DNA from: a virus
Strand: one strand, 5' to 3'
DNA: 44,852 nt
IMG/VR virus record: IMGVR_UViG_3300043410_001734
Location: 1-44,852 of that record
The notes beneath the pieces were generated by a model that saw only the letters and a program-made list of their open reading frames with translations, was not told the DNA's origin and ran no database searches. Of the stretch, positions 8,356-28,970 are shown piece after piece (the stretch's first letter is position 1; the number at the start of each line of letters is the position of its first letter). Both the position numbers and the translations under genes were made by a program.

Positions 8356-8380
8356 AAAAGCCCCGAAAGGGGCTTTTTTT
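8354..8380. terminator. Bidirectional rho-independent terminator
   Basis: AAAAAAGCCCC, a GAAA tetraloop, then GGGGCTTTTTTT. It ends the plus-strand H1-like gene and, read the other way, metK. Its T-run touches the metK stop codon. Confidence 0.85.
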
Positions 8381-9497: not shown

Positions 9498-10528
9498 AAA
9501 ATTTTCAATTCCTTAGCCCGGTTGTAAACCTGCTCGCTGGCAAGGTTCTTGGCTTTGCTCTCGCACATGATGTCACCCCAGGGTAAGTGACTCAAAGCCC
9601 AATCGTTTACATCCATGTTCCAATAGAAGTCGCTGTGTGCCCGAAGGTGTTGCTTTTTATGACCTCCTGCAATAAGTCTCTCAAAATCGGGACGAGTTCG
9701 GGGGCAATGAGCCAGAAGAACATCTTCCCTACTAACAGAATAGTGCAGAACAGGACGAGTACCACGCCAACTGTCAATAACACGGCGAACACGATCATCC
9801 TCTGCCAGGATGTAGTCGCCATGCGAGTTGATCCAATGATGGTGAATGTCAAGAACAAGAGCCACATGTTCACCAACAGCAAGAGTAACGTCCAATCCAT
9901 ATTTCATCTCGTCATTCTCGATGGTAATTAGATTCCTAGCCTCGGGAGTCATGCGACCCAGAGTCTGTAGGAATTTTGCAGGCCCACCGCGCCCGCTAAG
10001 ATGCACATTTATCTTAAAACCATGGTCGTGCCAAGTAGCGCCGTAGCCCATCCACCGCGCCATGTCTACATGGTATTCAAACTCTTCAATACTACGCTCA
10101 ACGATATTGTCATTGTCACTTGCAAGAACACAATACTGGCCAGGATGAAAACTGAGGCGCACGTCAAGGGCGCGAGCCACCCGTCCCACTTCTGCAAAAT
10201 GTTTTTCGGCATACGCTCTAACATCAGGTTGCTGATAAAACCAGCACCAATCAGGCTGAGTGTACATAGGAAGAATATCGCTACCAATACGCACCATACG
10301 ACGTTCATGTGGCATACCTCCAACACGTTGAACAAGTTTAAGGGTTGATTGTAGATTATCGCGTACGATGTCCCATAGGCGTTCTACTGCCACATCACGT
10401 GTCTGACGGTTGAGCCAGGCCACTGTGGTGCTACGAGTATTATGGTCCGTGCTTGCAGGACGCTTGCCTGCTACTTCTTCAGGGGCATTGATCCATTTGC
10501 AAGCAAAGCCAATTCGTTTGTGTGTCAT
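9494..10528 (-). CDS. uvsE: UV DNA damage endonuclease (UVDE family)
   Basis: The 344-residue TIM-barrel enzyme has the UVDE signature blocks: RIGFACKW at the start, MVRIGSDILPM, LSFHPGQY, the metal ligand segment ITIENDE and LVLDIHHHWIN. It nicks DNA 5' to UV photoproducts, starting an alternative excision repair. The ATG at 10526-10528 is chosen because it overlaps the stop of the upstream membrane-protein gene (ATGA); an in-frame TTG lies two codons earlier. A phage copy fits a life in sunlit water, which is inference. Confidence 0.93.
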   Translation of the reverse strand: MTHKRIGFACKWINAPEEVAGKRPASTDHNTRSTTVAWLNRQTRDVAVERLWDIVRDNLQSTLKLVQRVGGMPHERRMVRIGSDILPMYTQPDWCWFYQQPDVRAYAEKHFAEVGRVARALDVRLSFHPGQYCVLASDNDNIVERSIEEFEYHVDMARWMGYGATWHDHGFKINVHLSGRGGPAKFLQTLGRMTPEARNLITIENDEMKYGLDVTLAVGEHVALVLDIHHHWINSHGDYILAEDDRVRRVIDSWRGTRPVLHYSVSREDVLLAHCPRTRPDFERLIAGGHKKQHLRAHSDFYWNMDVNDWALSHLPWGDIMCESKAKNLASEQVYNRAKELKIL

Positions 10529-10656
10529 TTCCAAGGGTCGCGATCACTAAGTTCGTTTAAGAAAAGATCGATTATTTTAACAAAGCCAATGATTACTATG
10601 CAGAGCATTCCGAGGCCTGCAACGAACATAAGAGCTGTGACAAGATAATCGAACAT
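10525..10656 (-). CDS. Small membrane protein (43 aa)
   Basis: The product starts MFDYLVTALMFVAGLG, forms one long membrane helix (about residues 5-32) and ends in a charged tail with SDRDPWK. It directly follows a consensus sigma70 promoter and is coupled to uvsE by ATGA. The function is unknown. Confidence 0.7.
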   Translation of the reverse strand: MFDYLVTALMFVAGLGMLCIVIIGFVKIIDLFLNELSDRDPWK

Positions 10657-13698: not shown

Positions 13699-14463
13699 CT
13701 ACTCCCTCATATCAGCAATAAATTCAGCTTCAGGAATGCGTGTACGGGTGCTTTTGCTACCCATAACAACCACAACACGATCACCTAGGTCTGTGGCAAT
13801 CATCATTGCTAAACAACCGCCGCTGGCAGTTATCCATCCTGTTTTGCTAACAATCACTCGTTGGGTCTTGCCTACTAGACTGTTTGTCTGCGGAAAGATA
13901 AGCCACTTTTTCTTAACTTTGATTTCAATGCGAGTTTTCTTTGCGGCATCTACTATGGGTTGATAGTGACGGCCAGCACGTACAAGTTGTATAAGATCTC
14001 TAGCAGTGCTTTGATTACGTGCATCCAGTCCGGTGGGCTCAAATACTCTGCTGTGTATCATGCCCAGGCTGATTAGTTTTGCGTTCATTGCAATCACACA
14101 GGCTTCAAACCCACCTGGATAATGTTCACATAGTGTTTGTGCGGCACGGTTATCGCTGTTGACCATGGCCAGTTCTATCAGTGTGCCACGACTCAGTGTT
14201 TGTCCTTTGCGTGGTAAACGATCACGTAGCTTGGTGCTTAGTTCTAACTGTTGGTCTAGATCTTGATGTGCGTCTAGAACTGTGATAACTGTGAGCAGTT
14301 TTGTGATGCTTGCAATGCTTCGTACTTCATCTATATTTTCGCTTTGTACTATTTTGCCGTCGCTGTCGGACACAAGCCAGCTTTTAGCAGTGAGTCCATA
14401 GGCGAGGGCATTGCTGCCAAATGATAGGGCCAATAGTATAGCTGTAAGAAAACGTAAACCCAT
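13699..14463 (-). CDS. Penicillin-binding-type D,D-peptidase (peptidase S11, PBP7-like)
   Basis: The 254-residue protein has a Sec signal peptide (about 1-21) and all three serine D,D-peptidase motifs: SITK (S52, K55), SDN (103-105) and KTG (207-209). This is the core of S11 carboxypeptidases/endopeptidases, which trim or cut peptidoglycan peptide crosslinks in the periplasm. It lacks the C-terminal beta domain and membrane anchor of PBP5-type enzymes, so it is PBP7-like and probably soluble or loosely associated. It lies 27 nt after the cyclase gene, so it is probably read with it. In a phage it could relax the wall for fibre assembly or lysis, which is inference. Confidence 0.9.
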   Translation of the reverse strand: MGLRFLTAILLALSFGSNALAYGLTAKSWLVSDSDGKIVQSENIDEVRSIASITKLLTVITVLDAHQDLDQQLELSTKLRDRLPRKGQTLSRGTLIELAMVNSDNRAAQTLCEHYPGGFEACVIAMNAKLISLGMIHSRVFEPTGLDARNQSTARDLIQLVRAGRHYQPIVDAAKKTRIEIKVKKKWLIFPQTNSLVGKTQRVIVSKTGWITASGGCLAMMIATDLGDRVVVVMGSKSTRTRIPEAEFIADMRE

Positions 14464-14490
14464 TGATCAAAAATCCAAGCTGTCAGTAAA

Positions 14491-16542
14491 TTATTTCTCA
14501 TGTGCGACGAACTCGCCGTTCCAGTTGTCTGGCAAGTCTTGTTGCTTCATAAACTCACAACGTTCGATCCAGATCTTATAATACTTGTCCATCTGTCCGC
14601 CAAAGTTGCCAATTAACTTCTTACACATAGCGGCAGCTTCATCAAACTTCTTGGCTTTGTACAAGGCGTGCATTTTATTGTGCTGTTCACGATCCTTGGT
14701 ATAGTCAGCGCCTTTGGTACGCAAGGCTGTGTAGATCAAGTCTGCCACAGTCTTGCCTTTTGGCTGTAGATTATCCAGCAACAAGTAGAAGAAATCGTCT
14801 TTGGTTCTATTGTATGTCTCTGCACCTATTATACACAAAACTCCATAGGCTTTGCAACGAGCTTCTAGTCGAGCGGCTGTACTAACCATGTCACCTAAGA
14901 TGTCGTAGCTGTGTCGTTCAGTGCTACCCATTTCACCAATAAAGCCAATGCCTGAGTTACAACCCCAACCCATTGCGGCAGGAGGTAGGCCTTGTGCTTC
15001 CATGATCTTGGTATACTCATCAACAGCATCCAACATTTCAAGACCCACTTTGACAATGGTCTTGGCATGGTCTGGATCATCAATAGGAGCACCATGTATG
15101 TGCATACTTGCATCGCCTACATACTTGATAACCATACCTTTGTTATCTAGCATTGGCTTGCTAATAGCATCCATGTAACCGTTCATGTATTTGGTAAGTC
15201 CAGCAACGTCATCGCCATAGTGTTCACCAATAGGAGTAAAGCCGCGCAGGTCACTGAACATAACTGAAACGTCTTTGCGTACACCACGCTTGATAAGCTC
15301 TGGATCTTTCTGCAACATCTCCACAACTTCTTTTGAGCAATAGCCAGCAAACTGTTTCTTTATGGCCTGCTTCTGGAGGAACTCTGATACGAACTTGACA
15401 CCGTAGGCATGCAAAGCGACCAGGATTGTGCCACTTGTAAAGGCAGTAGCGTCAAATAGGAATAGAAAATTAGCGTAAAGATAGTGGCCGAGATAAACAC
15501 CGCCAGCAGCCAAAATAACAGTTGTCGCAAGGCCAACATATACATACCTCGTTAAGAAAAGTAATAGCAGTCCACCTGCAAACATGGCAACAATTTCTAA
15601 ACCATCTGCATAGTCGGGACGCTGAATAGTAACGCCATTGAACATGGTGCCAATCACTGCGGCTTGTGCTTGGTTAGGATATACCGCGCCAATGCTGGTA
15701 GGCACAGGATTACTGATACCAGCGGCAGTTGGGCCAACCAGCACCACTGCACCTTTAAGGTCATCTGGCAGTTCTGTGATACTGTAGCTCTGTGAACGTT
15801 GACTCCAGTCGATCCAGATGCGTCCGTAGTTGTCAGTGCTGATAGGACCAAATTTCGGAATACGCATTTTCTCAACGCCGCCTTCGTTTAGTTTGACCTG
15901 GAATGTGTCATCACCTGCAGCCACACGCAACACTTCCATACTCAAGCTAGGATACAAGATGTCCTTGCTACCAAATATCAAAGGAATACGACGGTTAACA
16001 CCGTCTACTTCAGGTAGCGTGTGTGCGCCACCAATGCCTGCGGCGGCATTTTCAATCTGTGGAATGTTGGCAATGATGCCGGGGTATGTGATAATCTGAT
16101 CAATCCACTCTGGGCCTAGCACAGCCGATCCCGGATTGCGTGGTGTGTTCTTTTGTACTTCGCCAGGCACGTTGGCAATGATAACAGGATACTTTTCCAT
16201 TGTGGCGGCTAATACAGCATCGCCACCCAGTCTATCTGCTTCAGGCATGAGCACGTTTAGCACAACAAGACCTGCACCACGACGATACAAGTCCTCAATC
16301 ATGGCCGCGTACACATCACGCTTAAACGGCCATTGTCCGTATTTGTCTAGTGCTTTTTGATCTATGTTGGCCGTTACAATGTTATTTTGTGTAGGCTCTT
16401 TGGCGCTGATCAATGTATCAAAGTAACGTAGTCTTACGCTTTCTACAAAGACAGGATCAGCGATTCTTATACTTACTAAAAGTACCAATGTCAGCAATGC
16501 TGTCCATGGACTCAACAACAGGGTTTTGAGTGTTTTGTTCAT
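14491..16542 (-). CDS. CHASE2-domain membrane adenylate/guanylate cyclase (class III)
   Basis: The 683-residue protein has one N-terminal membrane helix, then an extracytoplasmic CHASE2 sensor (about 30-310; NIDQKALDKYGQWPFKRD is typical). Three membrane helices follow (about 315-385), then a class III cyclase domain (about 420-600). Metal aspartates are D431 (MFSDLRGF) and D477 (KYVGDASM). K473 and D547 fit the purine-recognising pair of adenylate cyclases. R558 is present in AARLE. The transition-state Asn of GDxVNxAxR is Ser (S554), so activity needs testing. A C-terminal 80-residue helical extension follows. It would make cAMP in response to an envelope signal. It lies at the end of the curli/FecR locus; bacteria often pair FecR-domain and CHASE2-cyclase genes. 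Confidence 0.92.
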   Translation of the reverse strand: MNKTLKTLLLSPWTALLTLVLLVSIRIADPVFVESVRLRYFDTLISAKEPTQNNIVTANIDQKALDKYGQWPFKRDVYAAMIEDLYRRGAGLVVLNVLMPEADRLGGDAVLAATMEKYPVIIANVPGEVQKNTPRNPGSAVLGPEWIDQIITYPGIIANIPQIENAAAGIGGAHTLPEVDGVNRRIPLIFGSKDILYPSLSMEVLRVAAGDDTFQVKLNEGGVEKMRIPKFGPISTDNYGRIWIDWSQRSQSYSITELPDDLKGAVVLVGPTAAGISNPVPTSIGAVYPNQAQAAVIGTMFNGVTIQRPDYADGLEIVAMFAGGLLLLFLTRYVYVGLATTVILAAGGVYLGHYLYANFLFLFDATAFTSGTILVALHAYGVKFVSEFLQKQAIKKQFAGYCSKEVVEMLQKDPELIKRGVRKDVSVMFSDLRGFTPIGEHYGDDVAGLTKYMNGYMDAISKPMLDNKGMVIKYVGDASMHIHGAPIDDPDHAKTIVKVGLEMLDAVDEYTKIMEAQGLPPAAMGWGCNSGIGFIGEMGSTERHSYDILGDMVSTAARLEARCKAYGVLCIIGAETYNRTKDDFFYLLLDNLQPKGKTVADLIYTALRTKGADYTKDREQHNKMHALYKAKKFDEAAAMCKKLIGNFGGQMDKYYKIWIERCEFMKQQDLPDNWNGEFVAHEK

Positions 16543-16550
16543 AAGAATAT

Positions 16551-17363
16551 TTAGTTTTCAAGGAACTTGGTTAAGTCGGTGACTAACTCTGGGGTAAGCA
16601 TGTTAAACAGTTGTTGCCGCATGGTTAACATTTTTACTGTGGGTACTTCTAACTGTTTTAGCCATTGCTGTATCATTAACTTACCTAGTTTAACGTTTGA
16701 CTCTAGTTCAAATATGGCATTATATTCTACATATTGTCCAGGGTCTTGTTCAAGGCCAATGGACTGTGCGTACACATCGTATAGCACAAACTCACTTGCA
16801 CCTGTGCCACTCCAGGGCGCAATTGAAAACTCGTTGAACAGGTCTCTTAGACCGTTTACTCCAAGATGTTCAATTAAACTTTGTGCGGCTTGGATGTCTA
16901 TGGGATATGGTGTGGTAATGCCTCTTATATCATACTCGCCATATTTTTTACAGCAGTCAATATAAAAGTTTCCAAAGTTTACAAACACGCTCTGCGGGCG
17001 GCTTTGTCTATGAAAGTCATCTAGTACGCAGGTCTTGGCAAACCAGTTCTTGGTGTCAAGTATTAGATAGTCGCTGTTGGTCTTTGTAGCAAAAATCAGT
17101 TTGTATATCTGCTGTCTGTCGTATTCGTGTTTGCACTGTTGGGTAGGATGATCAAAGAAATCCTGCCATGTAAGAATACACAACTCATGCCGAGAAAAAT
17201 ACTGTTTGCAGTTTTGATCAAACCATTGCATCCATGGGCCAAAGTAAACTTCATTGACTATTACATTGACCCGACAAGGTTCTAAAAATCGTGATATGCT
17301 TTGAGCTTGTATTAGAAACTGGTGCATATCACGATAGCACGTGACCACTAGTAATTGATTCAT
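16551..17363 (-). CDS. Glycosyltransferase-like protein (DUF6492-like), copy 1
   Basis: The 270-residue protein starts with a Rossmann-type strand (QLLVVTCYRDMHQFL). A GT-A-like core follows, with an LILDTKNWFAK segment that occupies the place of a nucleotide-sugar DxD motif. It is a clear paralogue of 24139-24924: both have VVTCxRDxxQF, INE, KNWF(A/I)K and a late EFVLYDxYAQ segment. A sugar transferase role is inferred from fold-like patterns, not shown. It lies between the small secreted gene and the cyclase gene. The two copies bracket the curli genes. Confidence 0.6.
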   Translation of the reverse strand: MNQLLVVTCYRDMHQFLIQAQSISRFLEPCRVNVIVNEVYFGPWMQWFDQNCKQYFSRHELCILTWQDFFDHPTQQCKHEYDRQQIYKLIFATKTNSDYLILDTKNWFAKTCVLDDFHRQSRPQSVFVNFGNFYIDCCKKYGEYDIRGITTPYPIDIQAAQSLIEHLGVNGLRDLFNEFSIAPWSGTGASEFVLYDVYAQSIGLEQDPGQYVEYNAIFELESNVKLGKLMIQQWLKQLEVPTVKMLTMRQQLFNMLTPELVTDLTKFLEN

Positions 17364-17380
17364 CTAGTATTTAATACTAG
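17364..17380. repeat. Perfect 8-bp inverted repeat at a start codon
   Basis: CTAGTATT, one base, then AATACTAG, directly upstream of the ATG of glycosyltransferase-like copy 1 (17361-17363) and covering the stop of the previous gene. Its minus strand contains TTAAATAC, a weak late-promoter match. It may be an operator or RNA hairpin. Confidence 0.45.
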
Positions 17381-17676
17381 ACTGGATCACCTATCTGTAA
17401 CGTACTGCCTGTGCCTAGCCCAAGTATACAAGCAACTCTACCATCGCTTTGCAGGTAGGTCCAAGTATGATCTTTGTCGTTTACAGTCAGCACATAGGCT
17501 GTGCCGTCTTGAATGTCTTTGCCTACCCAAACTACTTTTTCATTAAATTTAGTAGATAGTGCTTCAAGTACAACAGGCAACTGATCGCAAATTACCTTTT
17601 TACTACTAGGAAACGGCTCGGCGTTGGCTATAGAGCTTGCTAGGCAGAATAGGAACGCCATTGTTAGCTTACGCAT
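17377..17676 (-). CDS. Small secreted protein (99 aa)
   Basis: It has a Sec signal peptide (MRKLTMAFLFCLASSIANA), then an alpha/beta domain of about 80 residues with two cysteines (VICDQLP and VACILGLG) that could pair in the periplasm. It is too unlike CsgE to be called that, although it sits in the position of an accessory factor. Similar short secreted proteins occur in other phages as far as I recall, without function. It has its own AAGGAGCC ribosome-binding site and late motif (17695-17702). Confidence 0.7.
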   Translation of the reverse strand: MRKLTMAFLFCLASSIANAEPFPSSKKVICDQLPVVLEALSTKFNEKVVWVGKDIQDGTAYVLTVNDKDHTWTYLQSDGRVACILGLGTGSTLQIGDPV

Positions 17677-17694
17677 AATGGCTCCTTAAAATTT

Positions 17695-17702
17695 TATTTA
17701 TT
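17695..17702 (-). promoter_or_regulatory. T4-type late-promoter motif
   Basis: AATAAATA on the minus strand, 18 nt before the ATG at 17676 and overlapping the stop of the 844-residue adhesin. The spacing equals that at 3268-3275. Confidence 0.45.
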
Positions 17703-20232
17703 GACGAACCACTGTTGAGCAGCCTGCAGGGTTCGTACAGCTCTGAATAATAGTAAAGTTCTTTCCGCCCGATTGTTGTAGATCCAGCGTGGCAGCACCA
17801 CCTGCATTGGTTAGATCAATATTGGCTTTGTTTTGCTGTGAGCCATCTTGTACCACAATGGCGCTGTTGTTATTGCCAGTTAAGTTTGTTGTAAGCTGAT
17901 GCTGACCTGTGCCTTTTTGTACTGCATCCACGGTGTTGCTGTCGCCTGTGATTGTGGTAAACATGATTTTGTTACCGTTGTCTGTTTGACGTTTGGTAAC
18001 ATTGTTTTGGTTACCATTGATTGTTGTTTCTTGATAATGACTGCCCAGTGTGGTATTGCTTTGTTGTGTGGTCAAGGTGTTTTGATATCCGTTGATATCC
18101 ACTGCTTGGTAGTGTCCGTTTACACCTGTTTCTACACCTGTGTTGGTACGAGCTTGTCCAATGTTCAGTGTATTGGTGTCTCCAATCACACGCAGGTTGA
18201 TTTCGTTCTGTCCTGTGCCTGTGGTACCTTGCTTGACTGTGATATTATTAGAAGAACCTTGTATCTGTGCGGCAGCTTGCCCAATGCCTGATACTAAATT
18301 CTTATCGCCTACTTGTTCTATGTACAGAGTATTACCACTTCCATTGACATCTAGGTTAATGCTGTTGCCTGTGCCGAGAGTTTTGTTCTGCCAGTTGTCC
18401 ACGCGAGTCTGTTGATCAGTGTCAAGCCCTGCAGAGCTGTTACTACCCGAAGTAATAATTTCTTGTCCAGTGCCATTGGTCATTGTAATAGTTCCGCCCT
18501 CTACCACAGGACCTAGTGCCACGCTGGTGCCACTTACATTTACTACGTTAGAGTTAGAATAAACTGTGCCTGTGGTATCAATGGTGTTGGACTCTGTGAT
18601 CCAGCCTGTACTGAATGCAGAGTTAGGAATTGCCATTCTACCTGCGCCATAGTCCCATTGTAGCTTGAGTCCATAGCCGCCTGTGTCGTTCCAGTACCAG
18701 GCTTCAAAGTTATAGCTTTGTCCTGCTACTATATCAATCCAACCAGAACTGGTATATCCAAACACGCTTTGCAGTTGGAATGTGGATTGATCATTGATAA
18801 TAGTTTGTCCGTTTATCTTCATCACAAATCCATCATCGCTGTTGCTGTAAAAATACAATCTGTATACACTGCCTGCAGGATGATTCTGTGTTATTGGTGC
18901 AGTGATCGTACCGTTGTAGGCAACCAGTGTGCCATCTCCCATGCCTGTGAATTTACCATTGGTTGGAACGTATACGCCGCTGGTGGTCACGCCCGATGCC
19001 ACTTGATTGTATGCACCAGGAGATAAACTAGGCACACGATATGGTCCTAGCAAGTTCTTGGCACAGATACCAAACACACAGGTATAGGTGTAGGCATCAA
19101 AGTCATAGACTTTGTAATTCAATCCAGTTAATACATTTTGTGTTGTGATTGTTACTGCACCATTGGCTTCAATTGTTTTGTTGCCATTGGCATCTGTAAC
19201 GGTATAGATAGGTGTGGTATAAACTGTTAGCACACCATTTGCAATCTTGTTGGTTACTACATTAGACGCAACCTTGGTCTGGTACACAGTTTCTGTGCCG
19301 TTTGTACTAGTGCTGGTGCCATCGCTGTAGTTTGTTGTAGTAACTGGTGTGCGATATACTGTTACTGTGTTACCGCTGACTACTTGTCTGGTTGTGTAGG
19401 TTACTGTGGTGCTGGTTACTGTTGGTGCAGTAGAAGGTGTGCCTGATGTTGCGCCTGTGCCTGCATTGGTCACGCTCATGGTGCTGTTGTATCCGCCTGC
19501 TGTACCACTGGTGGTGCCACCTAAAGGGTCTGGTCCTCCACCATTGGCGTTAGCAACCAAACCGACTGTACTTGATCCTGGTACACCGTCGCTGTTTACA
19601 ATACAGGCATTGCTTCCGCCCCATGCACCTTGACAAGCACCAAAGCCTGGATTACTGGTCCAACCCTGTGCTGTTACGCCATTGTATGGACCAAATTCTG
19701 GGTTGTATGTTAAGTTACCGCCGCCATTCAATGTAAATGTGGGCGCACGATACCAAGGACCATAGTCACCTGCCCAGTAACTGCCATCAATACCATACAT
19801 GGCAACTCGAGCATAGGCCACCTGTGATGCATCTGCCGCTGATAGTGTTGCACTAACAGTTAGTGTTGACCAAGGCACTGAGGTATCAATACAAGGATTT
19901 CCACAAACAGCATTTGGGTTCGGCAAGTTTGCACTATAATTTGATTGAGCCGTGGCGCCAATTTGAACACCGCTGGCATTAAAGAATTGGATACGCACGT
20001 TGGCTGTGTCGCTTTGTCCTGCACGGCCACCACCGTTGTGTGCTAGTACACTGAATGTAAATGTACCACCTTGTTGCATGGTGCTATCAAACACCACGTT
20101 CTGACTGATTGTTGTTGTAACATAAGCAGTAGCAATGGCATTATAGTCTTGAGCTTGTGCTCGACCACAAAAGCCAATCATCAGCACCGCTACAAACAGC
20201 AATGCTGATATAAAAAAACGTTCATATTTCAT
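17698..20232 (-). CDS. Large secreted adhesin with PA14-like domain and C-terminal curlin repeats
   Basis: The 844-residue protein has a signal peptide (about 1-27), then a beta-rich N-terminal region with a disulfide-prone VCGNPCID. A Thr/Val-rich stretch with YRTPVTTT-like repeats follows (about 265-350), then a PA14/GLEYA-like sugar-binding domain (about 395-545; SVYRLYFYSNSDDGFVMKI). From about 600 to the end there are curlin-type repeats (N-x(5)-Q-x-G-x-x-N pattern). It shares a VNGHYxxVDxNGxxN module and a terminal FTIIQ with the small curlin at 21505-22275. It should be exported through CsgG and could cap, anchor or decorate an amyloid fibre. The ATG overlaps the FecR stop. Confidence 0.82.
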   Translation of the reverse strand: MKYERFFISALLFVAVLMIGFCGRAQAQDYNAIATAYVTTTISQNVVFDSTMQQGGTFTFSVLAHNGGGRAGQSDTANVRIQFFNASGVQIGATAQSNYSANLPNPNAVCGNPCIDTSVPWSTLTVSATLSAADASQVAYARVAMYGIDGSYWAGDYGPWYRAPTFTLNGGGNLTYNPEFGPYNGVTAQGWTSNPGFGACQGAWGGSNACIVNSDGVPGSSTVGLVANANGGGPDPLGGTTSGTAGGYNSTMSVTNAGTGATSGTPSTAPTVTSTTVTYTTRQVVSGNTVTVYRTPVTTTNYSDGTSTSTNGTETVYQTKVASNVVTNKIANGVLTVYTTPIYTVTDANGNKTIEANGAVTITTQNVLTGLNYKVYDFDAYTYTCVFGICAKNLLGPYRVPSLSPGAYNQVASGVTTSGVYVPTNGKFTGMGDGTLVAYNGTITAPITQNHPAGSVYRLYFYSNSDDGFVMKINGQTIINDQSTFQLQSVFGYTSSGWIDIVAGQSYNFEAWYWNDTGGYGLKLQWDYGAGRMAIPNSAFSTGWITESNTIDTTGTVYSNSNVVNVSGTSVALGPVVEGGTITMTNGTGQEIITSGSNSSAGLDTDQQTRVDNWQNKTLGTGNSINLDVNGSGNTLYIEQVGDKNLVSGIGQAAAQIQGSSNNITVKQGTTGTGQNEINLRVIGDTNTLNIGQARTNTGVETGVNGHYQAVDINGYQNTLTTQQSNTTLGSHYQETTINGNQNNVTKRQTDNGNKIMFTTITGDSNTVDAVQKGTGQHQLTTNLTGNNNSAIVVQDGSQQNKANIDLTNAGGAATLDLQQSGGKNFTIIQSCTNPAGCSTVVRQ

Positions 20233-21335
20233 TTCTGGATCAAGGTAATTGTTGTACCTGCCCCTTGGTTAACACGGTTCTTGAATTCTAGGCTACCTTG
20301 AGTCATGTAAATTGTGCTGTTCTGCGTCTGCGGTGTAGTAACACACATGATATCGCCGCCAGTGTCACGGCATAGTGTTACAAAAGGATCGTCCTTGGTT
20401 ACCACAATACCTGAGCTTCTACGATAGTCAGGCAACATGTTGTCTGTGTCTTTGAGAAAATCTTCGTCTAATGAATTAAACATTTGATCAAAAAAGTTAG
20501 CAAGGTAGTTGCTGTCTAAAAAACTGCGACTCAGCTTGTCTTGATACAAGTTAGCCATTTGTGCTTCCAGCACATTGTCTAAACCTTCAAACTTAAAAAA
20601 GTCCTTGTCCAATGGATCATTTGTTGCTTTGATTTCTGTACGACTTTCTTTGATTTCCTTAGGTGGTGCAACAATTAACATGTTGCTGATTGCATCTTCA
20701 CTTAGTCGCAACACAACAGGTTTAGCAGGTATTGCACTACGGTTTGCCACTCTTGTGGCCTGGAAAGGCTGATTCAATATAACCTGCCCTGCGTCACTTT
20801 CAACAATGATAGTGCCTGTTACACAATTAGATTCAATATCGTCTTTTGTTCTTGTTCTGCGATCGTTGGGACAGGACGGCAACAAGATAATTGTGCTCGC
20901 TCCTACTTCATCAACGGTTGCTGTGAAATCTGTACCACGCACACTGATAGTTGCGCTGGGTGTATTAACTGCTACTTTTTGCGGATCATTTTTGGCAATC
21001 TGTCCTGATGCATAGCGCACAGTACCCAGTGCCATGTTCAGCGCCAGCTTGCCTGATTTTTTATTAGGGTCGTAAACAAAGTCATCAATTACTAACTTGG
21101 AGTTTTCGTTTACTTGTACTCTAGTATCGTCAGCGAACGTAATGCCCACTTTCCCCTGTGCAGTTCGTATCGAATCCATCATCTCCACTGGACTGCCCTT
21201 GCCCCCAGTTAGAGTCTGTGACTTTCTTTGTATGCTGGGCGGTGTGTTCAATTGCTCGGTGATATTCCCGATCCCGGCGTAGCTCTGCGATATAGGCAAC
21301 AATAGCCCGCATAGTAGTTGCATCCATGTTTTCAT
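20229..21335 (-). CDS. Secreted FecR-domain protein
   Basis: The start is the ATG at 21333-21335, behind GGGGAG and overlapping the previous stop (ATGA); the longer frame adds seven codons. The 368-residue protein has a signal peptide (MKTWMQLLCGLLLPISQSYA) and a FecR domain (about 55-180). The domain shows GKVGITFADDTRVQV, LNMALGTVRYASG and the typical NTPSATISVRGTDF block. The C-terminal half is helical and unassigned. FecR domains of this periplasmic, anchor-free kind often accompany CHASE2 cyclases and large surface proteins. It is coupled to the adhesin gene by ATGA, suggesting a direct partnership. Confidence 0.88.
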   Translation of the reverse strand: MKTWMQLLCGLLLPISQSYAGIGNITEQLNTPPSIQRKSQTLTGGKGSPVEMMDSIRTAQGKVGITFADDTRVQVNENSKLVIDDFVYDPNKKSGKLALNMALGTVRYASGQIAKNDPQKVAVNTPSATISVRGTDFTATVDEVGASTIILLPSCPNDRRTRTKDDIESNCVTGTIIVESDAGQVILNQPFQATRVANRSAIPAKPVVLRLSEDAISNMLIVAPPKEIKESRTEIKATNDPLDKDFFKFEGLDNVLEAQMANLYQDKLSRSFLDSNYLANFFDQMFNSLDEDFLKDTDNMLPDYRRSSGIVVTKDDPFVTLCRDTGGDIMCVTTPQTQNSTIYMTQGSLEFKNRVNQGAGTTITLIQK

Positions 21336-21505
21336 TGATCTCCCCATTTGAACCAATATGTACGTTGAAGAACTCGCATGACTTCATCACCTGTGGTACG
21401 GTGCCATTGTGCGGCCCATTCTACAAACTTGGCCCAGTCACGCAGTGCGTGATCGTTGCCCTGGGCCCAAGCCTGATACATGTGATGAAGTTCGCGCTCG
21501 TTCAT
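21332..21505 (-). CDS. Small soluble protein inside the curli operon (57 aa)
   Basis: ATG (21503-21505) overlaps the curlin stop (TAATG), and TGA (21332-21334) overlaps the FecR start (ATGA). The product starts MNERELHHMYQAWAQGNDHA, is rich in Trp, His and Arg, and has no signal peptide, so it stays in the cytoplasm. Tight coupling on both sides supports it as a real gene. The function is unknown; a cytoplasmic regulator or chaperone for the curlins is possible. Confidence 0.7.
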   Translation of the reverse strand: MNERELHHMYQAWAQGNDHALRDWAKFVEWAAQWHRTTGDEVMRVLQRTYWFKWGDQ

Positions 21506-22275
21506 TAGTTTCTCTGAATAATTGTAAAGCTATTGGTACTACCAACACTCTTGATATTTGTTGTCATATCAATTGTACCACTTTGGTTAATACTTACCTG
21601 GTTGCTAGAACCATTCAGATCTACTTTGGCATAGTGACCATTTACGCCACCGCCACTTTGTGTAATGCCAATGATGTTGCTCGCACCAACTGTAACAATG
21701 TCAACTGTTCCTTTGTCGCCAGTTAGGTTCAAGGTTGTTTCGTTGCCTGTGCCGCCTGTTTGATTTACAGTAACAAGAGTTGCACCTGCATCAATTGTGG
21801 CAATAATTTTGTTGAGATTGCCAGACTGTGATGATGTAAGGCTGTTGTTACTGCCTTTCATGCTGATCTGTGTGTCTGTATTGTTACCAGCTTGTGTTAC
21901 GTTGATAGTGTTGGCTAGGCTGGATCTTGTTCCAGCATTGTTCATGTCAATCTTTGCAGTGTTATTATTACCAGTAACATGATATGTGATACTAGAACTA
22001 ATACCCCCTGCTTGGCCAGTTTGTGCGCCTAAATCCAACGAGTTCCCACTGCCTGTTTGTAAGATATCTACAGTAAGTCCGTCACCGTAGAGTTTGGCAG
22101 CTATGTCGTTGCTGGGTGCATTAACTCCGCGAACATGGTTGCTTGAACCATCTTGTGTCATTGTGATCGTAGCGTTGTCACCGCTTTGATCAATGTAGAT
22201 GCTGTTATCTGCCGCATAGGTAGACACACACATCATTGCAATCGCAAAAGCAATAACTGTTTTCTTTTTACTCAT
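21505..22275 (-). CDS. Curlin-like amyloid subunit (CsgA/CsgB type)
   Basis: The 256-residue protein has a Sec signal peptide (about 1-21), then about ten imperfect repeats with the curlin pattern, as in YIDQSGDNATITMTQDG and LNGSSNQVSINQSG. Regular Gln and Asn at strand ends are typical of CsgA/CsgB cross-beta stacks. It ends SFTIIQRN. It lies right after csgG, so it is the obvious export substrate. Its ribosome-binding site is far from the ATG unless a hairpin folds (22283-22318). It is larger than E. coli CsgA, and some repeats are degenerate. Confidence 0.85.
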   Translation of the reverse strand: MSKKKTVIAFAIAMMCVSTYAADNSIYIDQSGDNATITMTQDGSSNHVRGVNAPSNDIAAKLYGDGLTVDILQTGSGNSLDLGAQTGQAGGISSSITYHVTGNNNTAKIDMNNAGTRSSLANTINVTQAGNNTDTQISMKGSNNSLTSSQSGNLNKIIATIDAGATLVTVNQTGGTGNETTLNLTGDKGTVDIVTVGASNIIGITQSGGGVNGHYAKVDLNGSSNQVSINQSGTIDMTTNIKSVGSTNSFTIIQRN

Positions 22276-22282
22276 TTTTGTT

Positions 22283-22318
22283 GGCCAATTTTTGTTTTAA
22301 TTGTTTTGGCCGCTCCTT
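22283..22318 (-). promoter_or_regulatory. Hairpin-bridged ribosome-binding site of the curlin gene
   Basis: The Shine-Dalgarno AAGGAGC (22312-22318) is 36 nt from the curlin ATG. Between them GGCCAA (22306-22311) and TTGGCC (22283-22288) can pair around a 17-nt A-rich loop. Folding would leave about 7-8 nt between the site and the ATG, the normal distance. This resembles the folded initiation regions described for some T4 genes. Confidence 0.55.
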
Positions 22319-22339
22319 GTGTTTTGTTTTATTTGCTCC

Positions 22340-23581
22340 TTACTTTGAATTTACAGGTTTTGTAGAAACCAATGCGGCTTTTTTAACATACCCTGTACGA
22401 CCATCTCTTGTTGTACCCACGAACCATTCCTCATTAAACGGTTCTACTGTCAATTCTGTACCGGGTGCTATCCAATACAGTTTAGGACTCGAATCATCGG
22501 CAGATTTCCATAAGTAGGCAACTCTGCCGTTTGTATACATAACCACTTCGCTTGGTGGCGGTGGCATTGGTGCTGCCTTAGGCAACTCTGCTACCACTGT
22601 TTCTGCTTCAGCACGTGTGGCAATTACTGCGTTGTCTTTTTTGGCAAGCTCTTTTGGGTCGGCGCTTGCGACTGTTTCGCTTCTTGCATTGCTTTCTGAC
22701 TTGCTGGACTGCTCCGGTGCGGGTGCAGGTGCTGGGGCAGGGGCGGGTGCTTCGGGGGCTTGTGGCTGAACCAAGACATTGGTTTTCTCCTTAAACGACC
22801 ATACGCCCTTACGCTGACCTTCTTTGATCAGCTCGACAACCGCAGCCTCTGTTGCTGACTTAACAGCATAAGTGCCAGGTTCATTGATTGTCATGCCGAT
22901 TTCACCTTCAAAGGCTTTTGTGCCAGCATCAAAGAATTTCAATGCTGTCACGCTGTCTGCACTAGACAGGATGGTCTTTTGAACTGTTACGCTCAATAGT
23001 ACCTTGCCTGTTTGTACGCTTACAGCACGTAGGCTTACGGTAACGATATCTTCGGAATACTGTGTGCTCGCACCAATACCCAACCAACGTGCGCCTAAGC
23101 CGCCTGACTTGGTTGAGCTGTCATAGCCAATGATGCCGCCTTCAATGATCATGCCTGCAAACTGCATAGGCATCAGTGGCTTGGCTTGTGGGCCTTCGTA
23201 GGCTTCACGCATCTGACGAATAATGGTACGCTCTTTTGTTAGGTTGTCAATACCCACACGCTCAACTACATCAAACCATTGACCGCCGCCTACGTTTTGT
23301 AGAGCCTGAATCAGGAATGTTTCTGCGCCTTGTGTGACTGCCGTGCTTAGACTAGCAATGCCAGCCACTGGACGACGTTGACCTGTTTTATCCTGGAAAG
23401 AATAAACTGCTACTGAAACGGGTTTTCCGCTCGCAGGTGCAGGTATTGTATCAAATTCTTTTTTAACTTGCTTCTGTTGTGTTGTAACTTGTGGTGCTTG
23501 ATCCGCCATGCCTAGGCGTTGTGAAGTAGCACAACCAGTTAACATAGTGATAACAGATAGGGCTATTATTGTTTTTTTCAT
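22340..23581 (-). CDS. csgG: Curli secretion channel CsgG with SH3-like C-terminal extension
   Basis: The 413-residue protein has a lipoprotein signal (lipobox TMLTGCAT, Cys17), then the CsgG core to about residue 270. Clear family blocks are VAVYSFQDKTGQRRP, NLTKERTIIRQ, IIEGGIIGYDSSTKSGG, GARWLGIGAST and TVQKTILSS. CsgG forms the nonameric outer-membrane pore that exports curlins. Unlike the 277-residue E. coli protein, it continues with a Pro/Ala-rich linker (about 275-345) and a C-terminal SH3-like domain (GRVAYLWKSADDSS to DGRTGYVKKAALV) that might bind peptidoglycan. It starts 1 nt after csgF. Confidence 0.95.
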   Translation of the reverse strand: MKKTIIALSVITMLTGCATSQRLGMADQAPQVTTQQKQVKKEFDTIPAPASGKPVSVAVYSFQDKTGQRRPVAGIASLSTAVTQGAETFLIQALQNVGGGQWFDVVERVGIDNLTKERTIIRQMREAYEGPQAKPLMPMQFAGMIIEGGIIGYDSSTKSGGLGARWLGIGASTQYSEDIVTVSLRAVSVQTGKVLLSVTVQKTILSSADSVTALKFFDAGTKAFEGEIGMTINEPGTYAVKSATEAAVVELIKEGQRKGVWSFKEKTNVLVQPQAPEAPAPAPAPAPAPEQSSKSESNARSETVASADPKELAKKDNAVIATRAEAETVVAELPKAAPMPPPPSEVVMYTNGRVAYLWKSADDSSPKLYWIAPGTELTVEPFNEEWFVGTTRDGRTGYVKKAALVSTKPVNSK

Positions 23582-23582
23582 T

Positions 23583-24071
23583 TTATAGTCCTGGTATCTG
23601 GAACTGTGCCAGTGGTATAGAGATAGTAGTGCTACTACCAGCTTGTGTAACGGTCATCTGAATGTTAGCTCCATCCTTGTACCAACTAACGCCTGTTAGT
23701 GTGTTACCGTTTACATCTTTTTCCATTACAAATGTACCTGCACAAGGATCCTGCGCTGTGGCGCAATTACCGTTGGCAAACATAGCGGTTGCTAGGTTCT
23801 GGCTAAACTGTGCATAGATACGTGATTCCAAGTTGTTCATAAACTTGGCAATGTTTGTGTTTTTTGCGTCTGCGGCTGCTTTATCCAATTCGGATTGGAT
23901 TTTATCTGCACGTTCTTTGGTTCGACTATGTTCTTGGTTTTCAATAGTCAAAACGTGGCTGCTATACCCTACGCCATTAAACGATGGGCTTTTGAATTGG
24001 AAATCATTGATTGGTGCCGCCCATGCGACTGTAGCGCAGAGTAGCAAGGTTGTTATTGTTATATTTTTCAT
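23583..24071 (-). CDS. csgF: Curli assembly factor CsgF
   Basis: The start is the ATG at 24069-24071, with AAGGAGC upstream; the longer frame has no ribosome-binding site. The 162-residue protein has a signal peptide and, right after cleavage (APINDFQFKSPSFNG), the CsgF signature that in E. coli (FQFRNPNFGG) plugs into the CsgG pore. The middle is helical (IQSELDKAAADAKN) and the end is beta-rich (IQMTVTQAGSSTTIS). CsgF sits at the outer mouth of CsgG and couples export to nucleation. No csgE is seen. Confidence 0.92.
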   Translation of the reverse strand: MKNITITTLLLCATVAWAAPINDFQFKSPSFNGVGYSSHVLTIENQEHSRTKERADKIQSELDKAAADAKNTNIAKFMNNLESRIYAQFSQNLATAMFANGNCATAQDPCAGTFVMEKDVNGNTLTGVSWYKDGANIQMTVTQAGSSTTISIPLAQFQIPGL

Positions 24072-24133
24072 GACCCACTGCTCCTTACTAGTATTTAAGA
24101 AAAGCGGATCCAAAATTTTATGCTCAGAGAAAC

Positions 24134-24147
24134 TTGTTCTAGAACAA
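24134..24147. repeat. Perfect 14-bp palindrome upstream of csgF
   Basis: TTGTTCTAGAACAA lies over the stop codon of the glycosyltransferase-like copy 2 and about 63 nt before the csgF ATG. It is a candidate operator for the curli operon. A weak late-type motif, TTAAATAC on the minus strand (24091-24098), lies between it and csgF. Confidence 0.45.
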
Positions 24148-24924
24148 ACTTTCGTTAATTAAATTTTCTAACTGTTCTAGATCTAGTTGTCGTAATGCAG
24201 TGGGGTGTATGGTCAACACATGATGTTGTTGATTGATTAAAAACTGTTTTATGGTGTTTAATGTTAAATCTTTTTCGTCATGCCAGAAGTTTTTGTATGG
24301 TATTCTTTCATACCCTGTGTCGGTTTCATAGCCCGCGGCTTGAGCATAAAGATCATATAAAACAAATTCATGTGGTTGATTGTATTGAACAAACCATTTA
24401 CAGAAAGATTCTATGCTGTCAAACTTGCTGAGTAATCCTTTGACCACAACAGGATCTACAATGTAGGGAGTTATTTCAGGGCGTGTTGGTAAAACCTCTT
24501 GCAAATCAAAGAGTTGCAAAGCATCTGCCATCATGTCTATGGCATCTGGTTTTATTCTTCTTGTGCGTTTAACAAAATCAGATTCTGTTGTGGGTTTTAT
24601 AAACCAGTTTTTAGAATCCAGCACCACATAAGGTGTATGGGTTTTTAGAGCAAACAACAGTTTGAATAACTGTTGCGTTTTCCATCCTGAATTTTTAAGC
24701 AGTATGGATTCTGAAACGTTGAAATCTTTGTGAGTGTATAGATGTACGGTATGTGACGGCAACAGTTTAGAGCACTCTTGCAAATACCAGACCAGCCAGG
24801 TAGAAGGATCTGGCTCGTTTATAACAATGTGTAGGTTAGTGGGGGATAAAAATTTGCCAGCTGTAAGACATTGTAATCGAAATTGATATCTATCTCGATC
24901 ACAGGTTACAACCAAGACGGTCAT
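24139..24924 (-). CDS. Glycosyltransferase-like protein (DUF6492-like), copy 2
   Basis: The 261-residue protein is a paralogue of 16551-17363. It starts with TVLVVTCDRDRYQFRLQC, has the NEPD loop and the YVVLDSKNWFIKP segment in the place of a GT-A DxD motif, and later HEFVLYDLYAQ. No signal peptide or membrane segment is seen, so it is cytoplasmic. It precedes csgF and overlaps the upstream gene (24921-24924, ATGA). A role in making or modifying a surface glycan next to the curli fibre is inference. Confidence 0.6.
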   Translation of the reverse strand: MTVLVVTCDRDRYQFRLQCLTAGKFLSPTNLHIVINEPDPSTWLVWYLQECSKLLPSHTVHLYTHKDFNVSESILLKNSGWKTQQLFKLLFALKTHTPYVVLDSKNWFIKPTTESDFVKRTRRIKPDAIDMMADALQLFDLQEVLPTRPEITPYIVDPVVVKGLLSKFDSIESFCKWFVQYNQPHEFVLYDLYAQAAGYETDTGYERIPYKNFWHDEKDLTLNTIKQFLINQQHHVLTIHPTALRQLDLEQLENLINESLF

Positions 24925-25253
24925 GCTGGCATTTGTAGCTTGGTAGATTTAGTTGTTGCAATACGATCCATGATAACTTGATAAAAGCTATCTAACTCTC
25001 CGCCAAACTTTCCTAACAGTAGATTACACAATTCACCGGCCAGTATGGTATTATCATTCTTTATAGCTGTGACCAGTTGTTCATGCATTTTGATATTCTG
25101 ATCCAGCGATGACATTTCCAATACTATTTTTTCCACAGGTAACACACAGAACGCCGGCACTGGACCTTCAGGATGAGGCATGGTGTCCAGTTCTAGTACT
25201 GTGTATTTTTGCTTCAGTTCGTCGGCTACTTCTTGTGTCAACACAATATGCAT
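24921..25253 (-). CDS. Unknown protein (110 aa)
   Basis: The start is the ATG at 25251-25253, behind AAGGTGGTGAC and 1 nt after the previous stop; the longer frame overlaps that gene. The product starts MHIVLTQEVADELKQKYTVL, has a Pro-rich turn (PHPEGPVPAFCVLP) and ends in a helical half that includes LLLGKFGGELDSFYQ. That last phrase resembles KLIGNFGGQMDKYYK near the end of the CHASE2 cyclase, which may be chance or a shared helical repeat. It is soluble, with unknown function. Confidence 0.68.
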   Translation of the reverse strand: MHIVLTQEVADELKQKYTVLELDTMPHPEGPVPAFCVLPVEKIVLEMSSLDQNIKMHEQLVTAIKNDNTILAGELCNLLLGKFGGELDSFYQVIMDRIATTKSTKLQMPA

Positions 25254-25254
25254 G

Positions 25255-25476
25255 TCACCACCTTGCAGATGCTTCTTTGAATGCTTGCATTCTTGCTTCT
25301 TTGCCTTGTTGTGCCGCTTGTTGGGCACTGGCAGTTGACATTTCTAGAATCAATGCCTGTTGCATCTCTTGCGTAATTTTTATGTTCTGTATGTCTTCCT
25401 CCAGGAACATTATTTTAGTGTCCAAGGCTCTGATCAGACTGATTACTTCATCTAATTTTTCTAATACTTCATGCAT
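25255..25476 (-). CDS. Small coiled-coil protein (73 aa)
   Basis: The start is the ATG at 25474-25476, overlapping the exonuclease stop by 8 nt. The sequence is a near-continuous heptad helix (VLEKLDEVISLIRALDTKI, then FLEEDIQNIK) with an Ala/Gln-rich end. It probably oligomerises. The function is unknown. Confidence 0.65.
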   Translation of the reverse strand: MHEVLEKLDEVISLIRALDTKIMFLEEDIQNIKITQEMQQALILEMSTASAQQAAQQGKEARMQAFKEASARW

Positions 25477-27177: not shown

Positions 27178-27413
27178 TAATAGTTCTTAGGAGGCAGTTG
27201 CTCGGCAGCAACTTTTTTCTGCCAGCGGCGTTTGGCTGAGTTTTTAGCCTTCTTACGTGCTGTGGTTGGCTTTTCATAAAACTCACGCTCGCGCAGTTCC
27301 TGCAACAGTCCGCTTTCTTGAACTTTCTTTTTGAATTTTCGTAGGGCTTTTTCTACTTGATCATTGACCACTTCGACTTTGAGCCCGCCTACATGTAAAG
27401 GTTTATACTTCAT
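27177..27413 (-). CDS. rpsU: Small ribosomal subunit protein bS21
   Basis: The 78-residue basic protein matches bS21: a short strand (GLKVEVVNDQVEKALRKFKK), LLQELREREFYEKPTTARKK and a Lys-rich C-terminal helix. bS21 sits near the mRNA exit region of the 30S subunit and helps Shine-Dalgarno recognition. Phage-borne bS21 is known in large aquatic phages and may bias ribosomes to phage mRNA. It overlaps clpX as ATGA. Confidence 0.93.
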   Translation of the reverse strand: MKYKPLHVGGLKVEVVNDQVEKALRKFKKKVQESGLLQELREREFYEKPTTARKKAKNSAKRRWQKKVAAEQLPPKNY

Positions 27414-28618
27414 GATTCTCCTGATTCAATTATATGTGTAGTTATCATATCTTCGCTAACTTGCAACACTTTTATGCCGTTTTTCTTTATGTCCCCAATA
27501 CCATAAAGATAAGGCAACATGGTTTGCTCAAGTATGGTTTTCAACCCACGAGCACCTATGTTTAGATCCAGTGCCTTTTGGGCAATGGCCAAGATAGCGT
27601 CGTCATCAAATTCAAGCTCAATGCCATCAGCTTGAAAATAAAACTGCATCTGTGCCAATAGACTGTTTTTAGGTTCTATCAGCACTCTGGTTAAGTCTTC
27701 TAGTGTTAGCGCATTCAATTCAACTGACACAGGAAAGCGACCAATGAATTCTGGAATCATTCCATACTTCATAAAGTCTTCTGGCAATGCACCGTAGAAG
27801 TCCTGCTGATTGTTTGTTTGTTTTGTAAACCCAATGCTGGTGCCTTTTTGTCTTGTTTCGATTATCTTACGCAGGCCTTCAAACGCACCGCCAGCAATAA
27901 ACAATATGTTGCTGGTATCAATTTCAACTGTTTCTAATGCAGGATGTTTTTTACTGCCATTCATGGTAACACGGCACTTGGTACCTTCTACCATTTTGAG
28001 CAGAGCTTGTTGTACACCTTCGCCTGACACATCTCTGTGCAAGCTGGCGCTTTCGCTCTTGCGCCCAATCTTGTCAATTTCGTCAATGAAGATAATACCC
28101 TGCTGACAACGTTCTATGTCGTTGTCTGCTTCACTGAGCAATCGTCCCACAAGACTTTCTACATCTTCGCCAACGTAGCCTGCTTGTGTTAGTGTGGTAG
28201 CATCTGCAATAACAAAAGGCACATTGAGATACTTGGCCACACTCTTGGCCAACAGCGTTTTGCCTGAGCCACTGGGACCAAACATCAGCAGGTTACTTTT
28301 TTCCAATTCTATCTTGGGTTTGAAGAACACTCGCTTGTAGTGATTGACCACTGCCACTGCCAGTGCAATCTTGGCATCATCCTGTCCTACCACATACTGG
28401 TCTAAGAACCTTCTAACTTTAACAGGATCCAACACCTTGGCAATCTTTTTGTCAGCCTTGATAGCATCAATGCGTTCACTGTCCAAGATGTTGCTACAAA
28501 GCTCAATACATTCATTACAGATTGCTACTTCGTTGGCCACAATGAGTTTCTTGACTTCGCTACGAGCTTTGCCGCAGAAGTCACAGCTCATGTGCCTGAT
28601 TTGAACTTCATCCGCCAT
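27410..28618 (-). CDS. clpX: Clp protease ATP-binding subunit ClpX
   Basis: The 402-residue protein is full length. It has the zinc-binding domain (C12, C15, C34, C37), Walker A GPSGSGKT (114-121), pore loop GYVG (147-150), Walker B IIFIDE (175-180), an RDVSGEGVQQALLK block and the ClpP-docking IGF tripeptide (262-264). The sensor-2 region (NIGARGLKT) is also present. ClpX unfolds tagged proteins and feeds them to ClpP; the intact IGF loop means it should dock ClpP, the phage copy included. It overlaps both neighbours (ATGA with bS21, 11 nt with the upstream gene). Sequence divergence from host ClpX could give new substrate choice. Confidence 0.97.
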   Translation of the reverse strand: MADEVQIRHMSCDFCGKARSEVKKLIVANEVAICNECIELCSNILDSERIDAIKADKKIAKVLDPVKVRRFLDQYVVGQDDAKIALAVAVVNHYKRVFFKPKIELEKSNLLMFGPSGSGKTLLAKSVAKYLNVPFVIADATTLTQAGYVGEDVESLVGRLLSEADNDIERCQQGIIFIDEIDKIGRKSESASLHRDVSGEGVQQALLKMVEGTKCRVTMNGSKKHPALETVEIDTSNILFIAGGAFEGLRKIIETRQKGTSIGFTKQTNNQQDFYGALPEDFMKYGMIPEFIGRFPVSVELNALTLEDLTRVLIEPKNSLLAQMQFYFQADGIELEFDDDAILAIAQKALDLNIGARGLKTILEQTMLPYLYGIGDIKKNGIKVLQVSEDMITTHIIESGES

Positions 28619-28970
28619 ATTGTTTTAGAAAATAATCGATTGGTTTTAGAATCTTATTCTTGTTGCCAAGAAACGGTTGACTGTTGTAGTACCAGGTATC
28701 CGGGCCTTTAATAAGTTCTCGTTTGATATGGTCAACTGGACTGCTGTCCATATTAACTATGATTGTTTGTACACGATTGAGAGTCTCTGCAAGCCATACT
28801 TCATCCAGCATGATATCAACATAGATGTAGATGTTTAGATCAACAGGTGCAGTCTTACACCAGAGTGCCACAGATTCAACATCAACCCAATCGGCATCAA
28901 TGATCAAGATTGATGGTTTGTCGTCTGTGACAAAGTCTGGCGGAGTTACAAAGTTACTATAATGTTGCAT
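28608..28970 (-). CDS. Unknown soluble protein (120 aa)
   Basis: The ATG at 28968-28970 is chosen because it lies just inside the end of the upstream gene; a longer frame starts further inside it. The product starts MQHYSNFVTPPDFVTDDKP and has alternating strands and helices (SILIIDADW, IYIYVDIM, TIIVNMDS) as in a receiver-like or Rossmann-like fold. There is no catalytic motif. I recall similar proteins in other T4-like phages without known role. Confidence 0.65.
   Translation of the reverse strand: MQHYSNFVTPPDFVTDDKPSILIIDADWVDVESVALWCKTAPVDLNIYIYVDIMLDEVWLAETLNRVQTIIVNMDSSPVDHIKRELIKGPDTWYYNSQPFLGNKNKILKPIDYFLKQYGG

Follow-up and report, generated by a model that had tools for sequence, protein, structure and literature searches.

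A conserved curli-type secretion cassette with curlin-repeat substrates, a FecR-domain protein and a CHASE2 cyclase in phages

The stretch of DNA analysed here (the window) is the IMG/VR virus record IMGVR_UViG_3300043410_001734, 44,852 bases long, and its minus strand carries a cassette of curli-type (type VIII) secretion, comprising genes for the outer-membrane pore CsgG, its cap CsgF, two exported repeat proteins (curlin1 and curlin2), a FecR-domain protein and a CHASE2 adenylyl cyclase. The cassette is conserved and under purifying selection, and it is complete apart from CsgE. The best explanation, evenly poised between acceptance and doubt in our judgement, is that it gives infected cells lectin-bearing amyloid fibres, which the FecR protein and the cyclase would anchor or monitor. 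A sequence-only reading of the window had proposed a phage-borne type VIII secretion cassette bringing its own substrates, and this is supported by the domain content, the gene order in 30 of 32 loci, the purifying selection and the structure models.

The same reading had supposed that a set including substrates, FecR and a cyclase was undescribed, which turned out to be wrong, since such a set has been described (PMC9599517) and phages HTVC008M and Melnitz carry it. The csgF and csgG genes were noted together with curli-associated genes in pelagimyophages in 2020 (PMC7029224); in 2022 csgGF genes were reported in the Melnitz phage (PMC9004378) and, in a survey, among the auxiliary genes of sediment viruses (PMC9636769), and Wittmers et al. 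(2022) reported that podophages and myophages carry csgF and csgG along with genes for two curlins, FecR and adenylyl cyclase (PMC9599517). The kind of cassette is known, and the window holds a variant of it in another phage lineage, with new clues on its origin and on FecR. Until now, phage curli cassettes had been reported in marine phages that infect SAR11 and OM43, with no explanation for their FecR and cyclase genes; the same six genes are now seen in a large phage clade, probably of freshwater, as a cassette that is nearly invariant and under selection. If the fibres do form, some phages reprogramme the surface of the infected cell with lectin-bearing amyloids, and aggregation, particle formation and superinfection would be affected.

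Conservation of the cassette among phages

A CsgG-profile scan of IMG/VR found at least 577 contigs with CsgG relatives, and csgF precedes csgG in every locus fetched (loci are labelled in the style of L004). From 65 non-redundant loci, the 32 with at least 9.5 kb after csgG made up the set for the cassette counts. All six core profiles (csgF, csgG, curlin1, FecR, curlin2 and cyclase) matched in 32/32 of them, the curlin2 count meaning at least one repeat protein and not always a separate second gene, as the two curlin profiles cross-match. The sequence-only reading had asked how often substrates and FecR accompany csgFG in viral genomes, and by these profiles they do so in every one of the 32 loci. 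The order csgF-csgG-curlin-FecR-cyclase on one strand is kept in 30 of them. Median ratios of nonsynonymous to synonymous substitution rates (dN/dS) were 0.12 for FecR, 0.13 for the adenylyl cyclase, 0.15 for curlin2, 0.16 for csgG, 0.17 for csgF and 0.39 for curlin1.

In the CsgG tree the IMG/VR phages, the window included, form one clade (support 100/97), and marine phages together with three contigs of metagenome-assembled genomes (MAGs) form another (100/98), with Caulobacteraceae outside; the cellular rows sit on long branches, which leaves the deep order unsure. The IMG/VR clade is probably mostly freshwater, judging by its split from the marine phages and by the source samples, which we take to be freshwater.

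This constancy bears on a reading that seems improbable to us, namely that only the CsgG/CsgF pore matters, making the outer membrane permeable so as to time lysis or take up nutrients, and that the curlin-like proteins are relics. Such a role was proposed for Melnitz (PMC9004378), and the absence of the CsgE gate and the DD-peptidase adjoining the cassette would fit it. However, all 32 loci contain curlin and FecR genes, whose dN/dS is well below 1, and a pore has no need of a lectin domain. The breach of the outer membrane by the pore, offered as an option in the sequence-only reading, is disfavoured by the constant presence of the substrates and the selection on them.

The genes named by that reading (csgF, csgG, the curlin-repeat gene, the 57-residue gene, FecR, the 844-residue PA14/curlin gene and four genes downstream) all lie on the minus strand at the coordinates it gave. 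In order of transcription, the cassette and the two genes before it are as follows.

24921-25328, minus strand: 135-residue protein, with a C-terminal stretch like the C-terminal extension of the cyclase (BLASTP)
24139-24924, minus strand: possible glycosyltransferase of 261 residues, paralogue of the 270-residue gene
23583-24071, minus strand: csgF, pore cap and nucleation factor (PF10614; ATG start)
22340-23581, minus strand: csgG, lipoprotein forming the outer-membrane export pore (PF03783; lipobox LTGC)
21505-22275, minus strand: curlin1, amyloid-type substrate of 256 residues with curlin repeats and a signal peptide (PF07012)
21332-21505, minus strand: p57, small gene of 57 residues (TAATG and ATGA overlaps with its neighbours)
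20229-21335, minus strand: exported FecR-domain protein with a curlin-like C-terminal strand set (PF04773, AlphaFold, tail motif)
17698-20232, minus strand: curlin2, exported protein of 844 residues with a beta-rich N-terminal part, a PA14 lectin-like domain and C-terminal curlin repeats (AlphaFold/Foldseek)
17377-17676, minus strand: small exported protein of 99 residues (signal peptide read in the sequence; no Pfam match)
16551-17363, minus strand: possible glycosyltransferase of 270 residues, paralogue of the gene at 24139-24924
14491-16542, minus strand: CHASE2 class III adenylyl cyclase (PF05226, PF00211)
13699-14463, minus strand: exported S11 DD-peptidase, closest to the PbpG DD-endopeptidase (PF00768)

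The coupled run that had been noticed is borne out by start/stop overlaps at three junctions, TAATG being common to curlin1 and p57, and ATGA to p57 and FecR as well as to FecR and curlin2. Because of these overlaps curlin1, p57, FecR and curlin2 are probably translated together. The start of csgF is probably the internal ATG at 24071 of a longer TTG frame beginning at 24113, and that of FecR probably the internal ATG at 21335 of a TTG frame from 21356. Homologues of p57 occupy the same position in about 9 relatives, and the gene of the 99-residue protein occurs in only 6/32. Promoter and terminator scans gave nothing beyond chance.

The pore, the exported subunits and the surface-chemistry genes

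CsgG matches PF03783 (E 4e-50, above the cut-off) and the NCBIfam CsgG model (E 5e-53, below the equivalog cut-off), and CsgF matches PF10614 (E 8e-8, above the cut-off) and is 37-41% identical to CsgF of HTVC008M and Melnitz. At its C-terminus (22340-22774) CsgG bears a proline-rich linker and an SH3-like extension (SH3_3, E 0.004, below the cut-off), which are also present in many relatives. Contact of this extension with peptidoglycan is a possibility.

Curlin1 matches the curlin repeat PF07012 (E 1e-8) and the NCBIfam models of CsgA (2e-8) and CsgB (2e-7), both below the equivalog cut-offs; its motif Q.G..N is seen 3 times against 0.2 expected, a count equalled in 1/2000 shuffles. Curlin2 has no Pfam match. 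Its AlphaFold model, built like the FecR model from an alignment of the window and IMG/VR loci only, matches in Foldseek the PA14 lectin of a Marinomonas adhesin (MpPA14; E ~1e-5, TM-score to target ~0.6) and also Flo/Epa lectins. Short strands follow one another along the repeats of the C-terminal third, with block values of the predicted local distance difference test (pLDDT) mostly of 78-94. HTVC008M has a curlin2 homologue. Signal peptides were read in the sequences of both curlins; these, along with the coupling to an outer-membrane exporter, argue against the curlin proteins being parts of the virion (decorations of capsid or tail) rather than cell-surface fibres. The one circumstance in favour of that idea, the position of the cassette near lysozyme and terminase genes in one MAG contig (L090), leaves it barely credible in our view.

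The S11 peptidase (PF00768, 2e-35) has SITK, SDN and KTG motifs readable in its sequence, and its match to the NCBIfam model PRK11669 (PbpG; E 1e-46) scores 159 bits against a cut-off of 294, i.e., below the equivalog cut-off. The 261-residue protein, encoded just upstream of the cassette, and the 270-residue protein, encoded inside it, share 30% identity (E 7e-34); a match of the former to DUF6492 (E 0.005, below the cut-off) is the sole family hint at a glycosyltransferase. In the relatives the stretch from the second curlin or FecR to the cyclase is variable and carries genes for a glycosyltransferase (GT4), a phosphoesterase, a RimK-like ATP-grasp protein, an epimerase, a carbamoyltransferase or an acetyltransferase. 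Examples of these variable surface-chemistry genes lie at L029:14523-17156, L042:14706-16536 and L037:14212-15033.

Variable surface-sugar genes of this sort (glycosyltransferase, epimerase, carbamoyltransferase) fit receptor masking, and they bring in the possible, though in our opinion doubtful, alternative that the fibres serve mainly as a barrier to superinfection, with the coat hiding receptors and trapping competing virions. Such a barrier was proposed for pelagiphages (PMC9599517). The same anatomy, however, fits aggregation equally well.

The FecR-domain protein, the cyclase and a possible mechanism

The FecR proteins of FecI-FecR systems are sigma-factor-binding proteins that span the inner membrane. 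The protein of the window has the FecR domain (PF04773, E 3e-12), and its AlphaFold model shows a FecR fold followed by six short strands at residues 311-368 (block pLDDT about 70-80). In Foldseek the model groups with PupR, 4m0h and other anti-sigma domains; another of its matches is the cell surface anchoring domain 5ix9 (TM to target 0.77), presumably part of the Marinomonas primoryensis adhesin MpAFP. A search of PDB sequences with the FecR profile gave chance-level matches only.

The C-terminus of the phage FecR proteins is peculiar. In 51/52 module copies it consists of a glycine turn and then an I-T-L-I-Q-type strand, and most curlin2 proteins end likewise. The strict motif occurs in 0/75 other bacterial FecR open reading frames (ORFs), and a loose form in 10/75; all seven FecR copies of the MAG contigs have the looser form. 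The difference between 51/52 and 0/75 gives a Fisher p of 5e-35, which is illustrative, as the sequences, being related, are not independent and the phage tails were already known when the strict pattern was drawn up. Whole-protein hhalign comparison of FecR with curlin1 gave nothing useful, and a first comparison of the tail alone was confounded, probably by signal peptides. With signal peptides removed, the tail windows rank first among FecR segments for both curlins, with scores of 16.1 and 16.9; when the C-terminal 62 residues are set aside, the best windows reach 12.5 and 12.9.

Earlier authors suggested that FecR and the cyclase form an iron-responsive regulator of the cassette (PMC9599517), and the likeness of the domain to PupR and other anti-sigma folds speaks for it. 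Against it, a hydrophobic segment after residue 30 is absent in 52/52 FecR homologues, which means that there is no membrane span and no cytosolic sigma-binding part; no ECF (extracytoplasmic function) sigma r4 domain (PF08281) exceeded the cut-off in 13 viral records, some of which are possibly fragments; and the C-terminal curlin-like strands are left unexplained. We consider iron regulation very unlikely. Since the protein is exported to the periplasm and has a curlin-like C-terminal strand set, it is most likely, as far as sequence and models allow, an adaptor linking the fibre to the cyclase or the surface, and this role is favoured over the iron regulator also by the missing membrane segment and ECF sigma factor, the 5ix9 match and the cyclase neighbours. 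As to the latter, in a set of 73 other bacterial FecR loci, FecR has a CHASE2-cyclase-like ORF at most 300 bp away in 14 cases and farther off in two, so the FecR/cyclase pair exists without curli too. In the alphaproteobacterial genome G399 two loci (L178 and L180) have FecR-like domains near the start of open frames of 6,913 and 5,659 residues, which suggests that FecR-type domains occur in giant surface proteins, perhaps adhesins.

The cyclase contains CHASE2 (PF05226, 2e-37) and Guanylate_cyc (PF00211, 1e-14) domains. Its D431, D477, K473 and R558 (the two metal-binding aspartates, the adenine-type lysine and the transition-state arginine) are kept in 30/30 homologues, and because the catalytic residues are intact it should make cyclic AMP (cAMP). 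The 135-residue protein, whose homologues lie upstream of csgF in more than 20 loci, matches cyclase residues 619-670, i.e., the C-terminal extension (BLASTP E 1e-7); the two proteins may bind a common partner.

Taken together, the cassette could work as a type VIII secretion system without recognizable CsgE, related to a rare operon of Caulobacteraceae MAGs. CsgG and CsgF would form an outer-membrane pore in the infected cell, through which two subunits of amyloid type would be exported. One is a plain curlin; the other is large, has curlin repeats at its end and would expose PA14, which could let the fibre bind sugars. In the periplasm the FecR protein may touch the fibre subunits and anchor or nucleate the fibre; alternatively, it may signal secretion to the adjacent cyclase through the latter's CHASE2 domain, which is periplasmic, and cAMP would be the response. 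Cell-wall and surface glycans would be modified by the S11 peptidase and the products of the glycosyltransferase-like genes. The net result would be a sticky coat on the infected cell, promoting contact with further hosts or particles or screening against rival phages; the trapping of hosts by a fibre coat is the hypothesis published as "sibling capture" (PMC7029224). Only tentatively do we suppose that FecR in the curli cassettes of phages and a few alphaproteobacteria is a fibre-coupled sensor, its tail docking exported subunits and signalling to the CHASE2 cyclase. If so, the phage carries a complete secretion-plus-feedback circuit, the infected cell reads its own fibre coat as cAMP, and FecR in curli loci has been misread as an iron regulator. 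The tail suggests a concrete function, open to falsification, for a gene that bears this label.

Several observations weigh against the fibre explanation. The models are of moderate confidence, both for curlin2 (pLDDT 68.3, predicted TM-score (pTM) 0.38) and for FecR (pLDDT 69.6, pTM 0.49). The tail-only hhalign matches are weak in absolute terms, with a probability of about 2-6%, because the repeats are short. CsgE was found in 0/30 viral records with a positive E. coli control, and therefore gating or substrate choice must differ from those of E. coli, although CsgE is not essential for curli (PMC7029224). Finally, no clumping was seen in Melnitz-infected cells (PMC9004378).

Phage context, cellular counterparts and known systems

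The sequence-only reading had named a bacterial chromosome or a chimeric assembly as the origin that would undo it. This is rejected because the cassette of the closest relative, L004, is flanked by the same genes on either side, the content of guanine and cytosine is even along the contig, and phage genes are present on it (structural protein phrog_1645, exonuclease phrog_255 and NrdAB). The flanks encode a ClpX-like ATPase, an exonuclease, structural proteins related to cyanophage proteins, NrdA/NrdB, S-adenosylmethionine synthetase and UvdE. The phage-encoded ClpX-like ATPase (27410-28618) has a zinc finger and lies upstream of the cassette in a few relatives too, and at 8379-10534 the S-adenosylmethionine synthetase gene adjoins that of the UvdE-type UV endonuclease. 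A gene of 657 residues (28957-30930), with a weak virion-protein match, has homologues upstream of csgF in 59/83 loci and likely belongs to the core genes of the phage group. The window itself yielded no terminase; the terminase protein of a 265-kb relative is ~51% identical to those of PA5oct-type jumbo phages, and megablast with a relative's terminase matched no phage record.

Among GTDB genomes, the FecR profile picked out seven contigs that bear the module (L084-L090). One of them, the 82-kb Caulobacteraceae MAG contig L089, carries csgF-csgG-curlin-curlin-FecR-cyclase, and this copy is chromosomal, since genes of methylmalonyl-CoA mutase, acyl-CoA dehydrogenase, an amidohydrolase and a DsbA-like protein adjoin it. 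L088, from a second Caulobacteraceae MAG, is a very similar six-gene locus, the chromosomal setting having been examined for L089 only. L090 is ruled out as a cellular copy, being phage by its lysozyme and terminase; L084, L086 and L087 are possibly misbinned phage contigs, and L085 shows mixed phage-family matches. The cellular version is rare, because the module FecR occurs in only 2/199 Caulobacteraceae and neither FecR nor cyclase was found within the 19.5 kb examined around csgG in three other alphaproteobacterial csgFG loci. The abstract of Wittmers et al. (2022) states that bacterial T8SS (type VIII secretion system) operons do not include FecR and cyclase (PMC9599517), with which the L088 and L089 operons are at odds; the same authors also noted that the viral order resembles alphaproteobacterial modules (PMC9599517).

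In comparison with the csgBAC/csgDEFG system of E. coli, the window shares CsgG, CsgF and curlin-repeat substrates and adds FecR, the cyclase and a lectin domain, CsgE not being found. The T8SS module of HTVC023P-type podophages and pelagimyophages has the same csgF-csgG-curlin-FecR-curlin-cyclase order, and CsgC, CsgD and CsgE were reported absent from it (PMC9599517). Unlike that module, the window has a CsgG of a separate clade with an SH3-like tail, and it adds the glycosyltransferase-like genes and the S11 peptidase; the podophage version has a histidine kinase just upstream, for which there was no match in the two genes upstream of csgF in the window. Melnitz (gp99-gp104) and HTVC008M (gp014-gp019) have the six homologues in the same order, at ~29-48% identity per gene, but their CsgG is devoid of the C-terminal extension. 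HTVC008M gp018 aligns to the PA14-curlin part of the window protein, whereas the second curlin of Melnitz is much shorter and without the PA14 region.

The PA14 lectin fold of curlin2 recurs in the RTX adhesin MpAFP of Marinomonas primoryensis, which, unlike the window protein, uses type I secretion and Ca-dependent repeats and has no curlin. A cellular likeness is that of the two Caulobacteraceae loci, which, like the window, have csgF, csgG, two curlins, a curlin-tailed FecR and a CHASE2 cyclase on one strand, and differ in that both curlins precede FecR and are short (223-247 residues). These cellular copies provide a bacterial system in which the extra genes, FecR and cyclase, can be tested.

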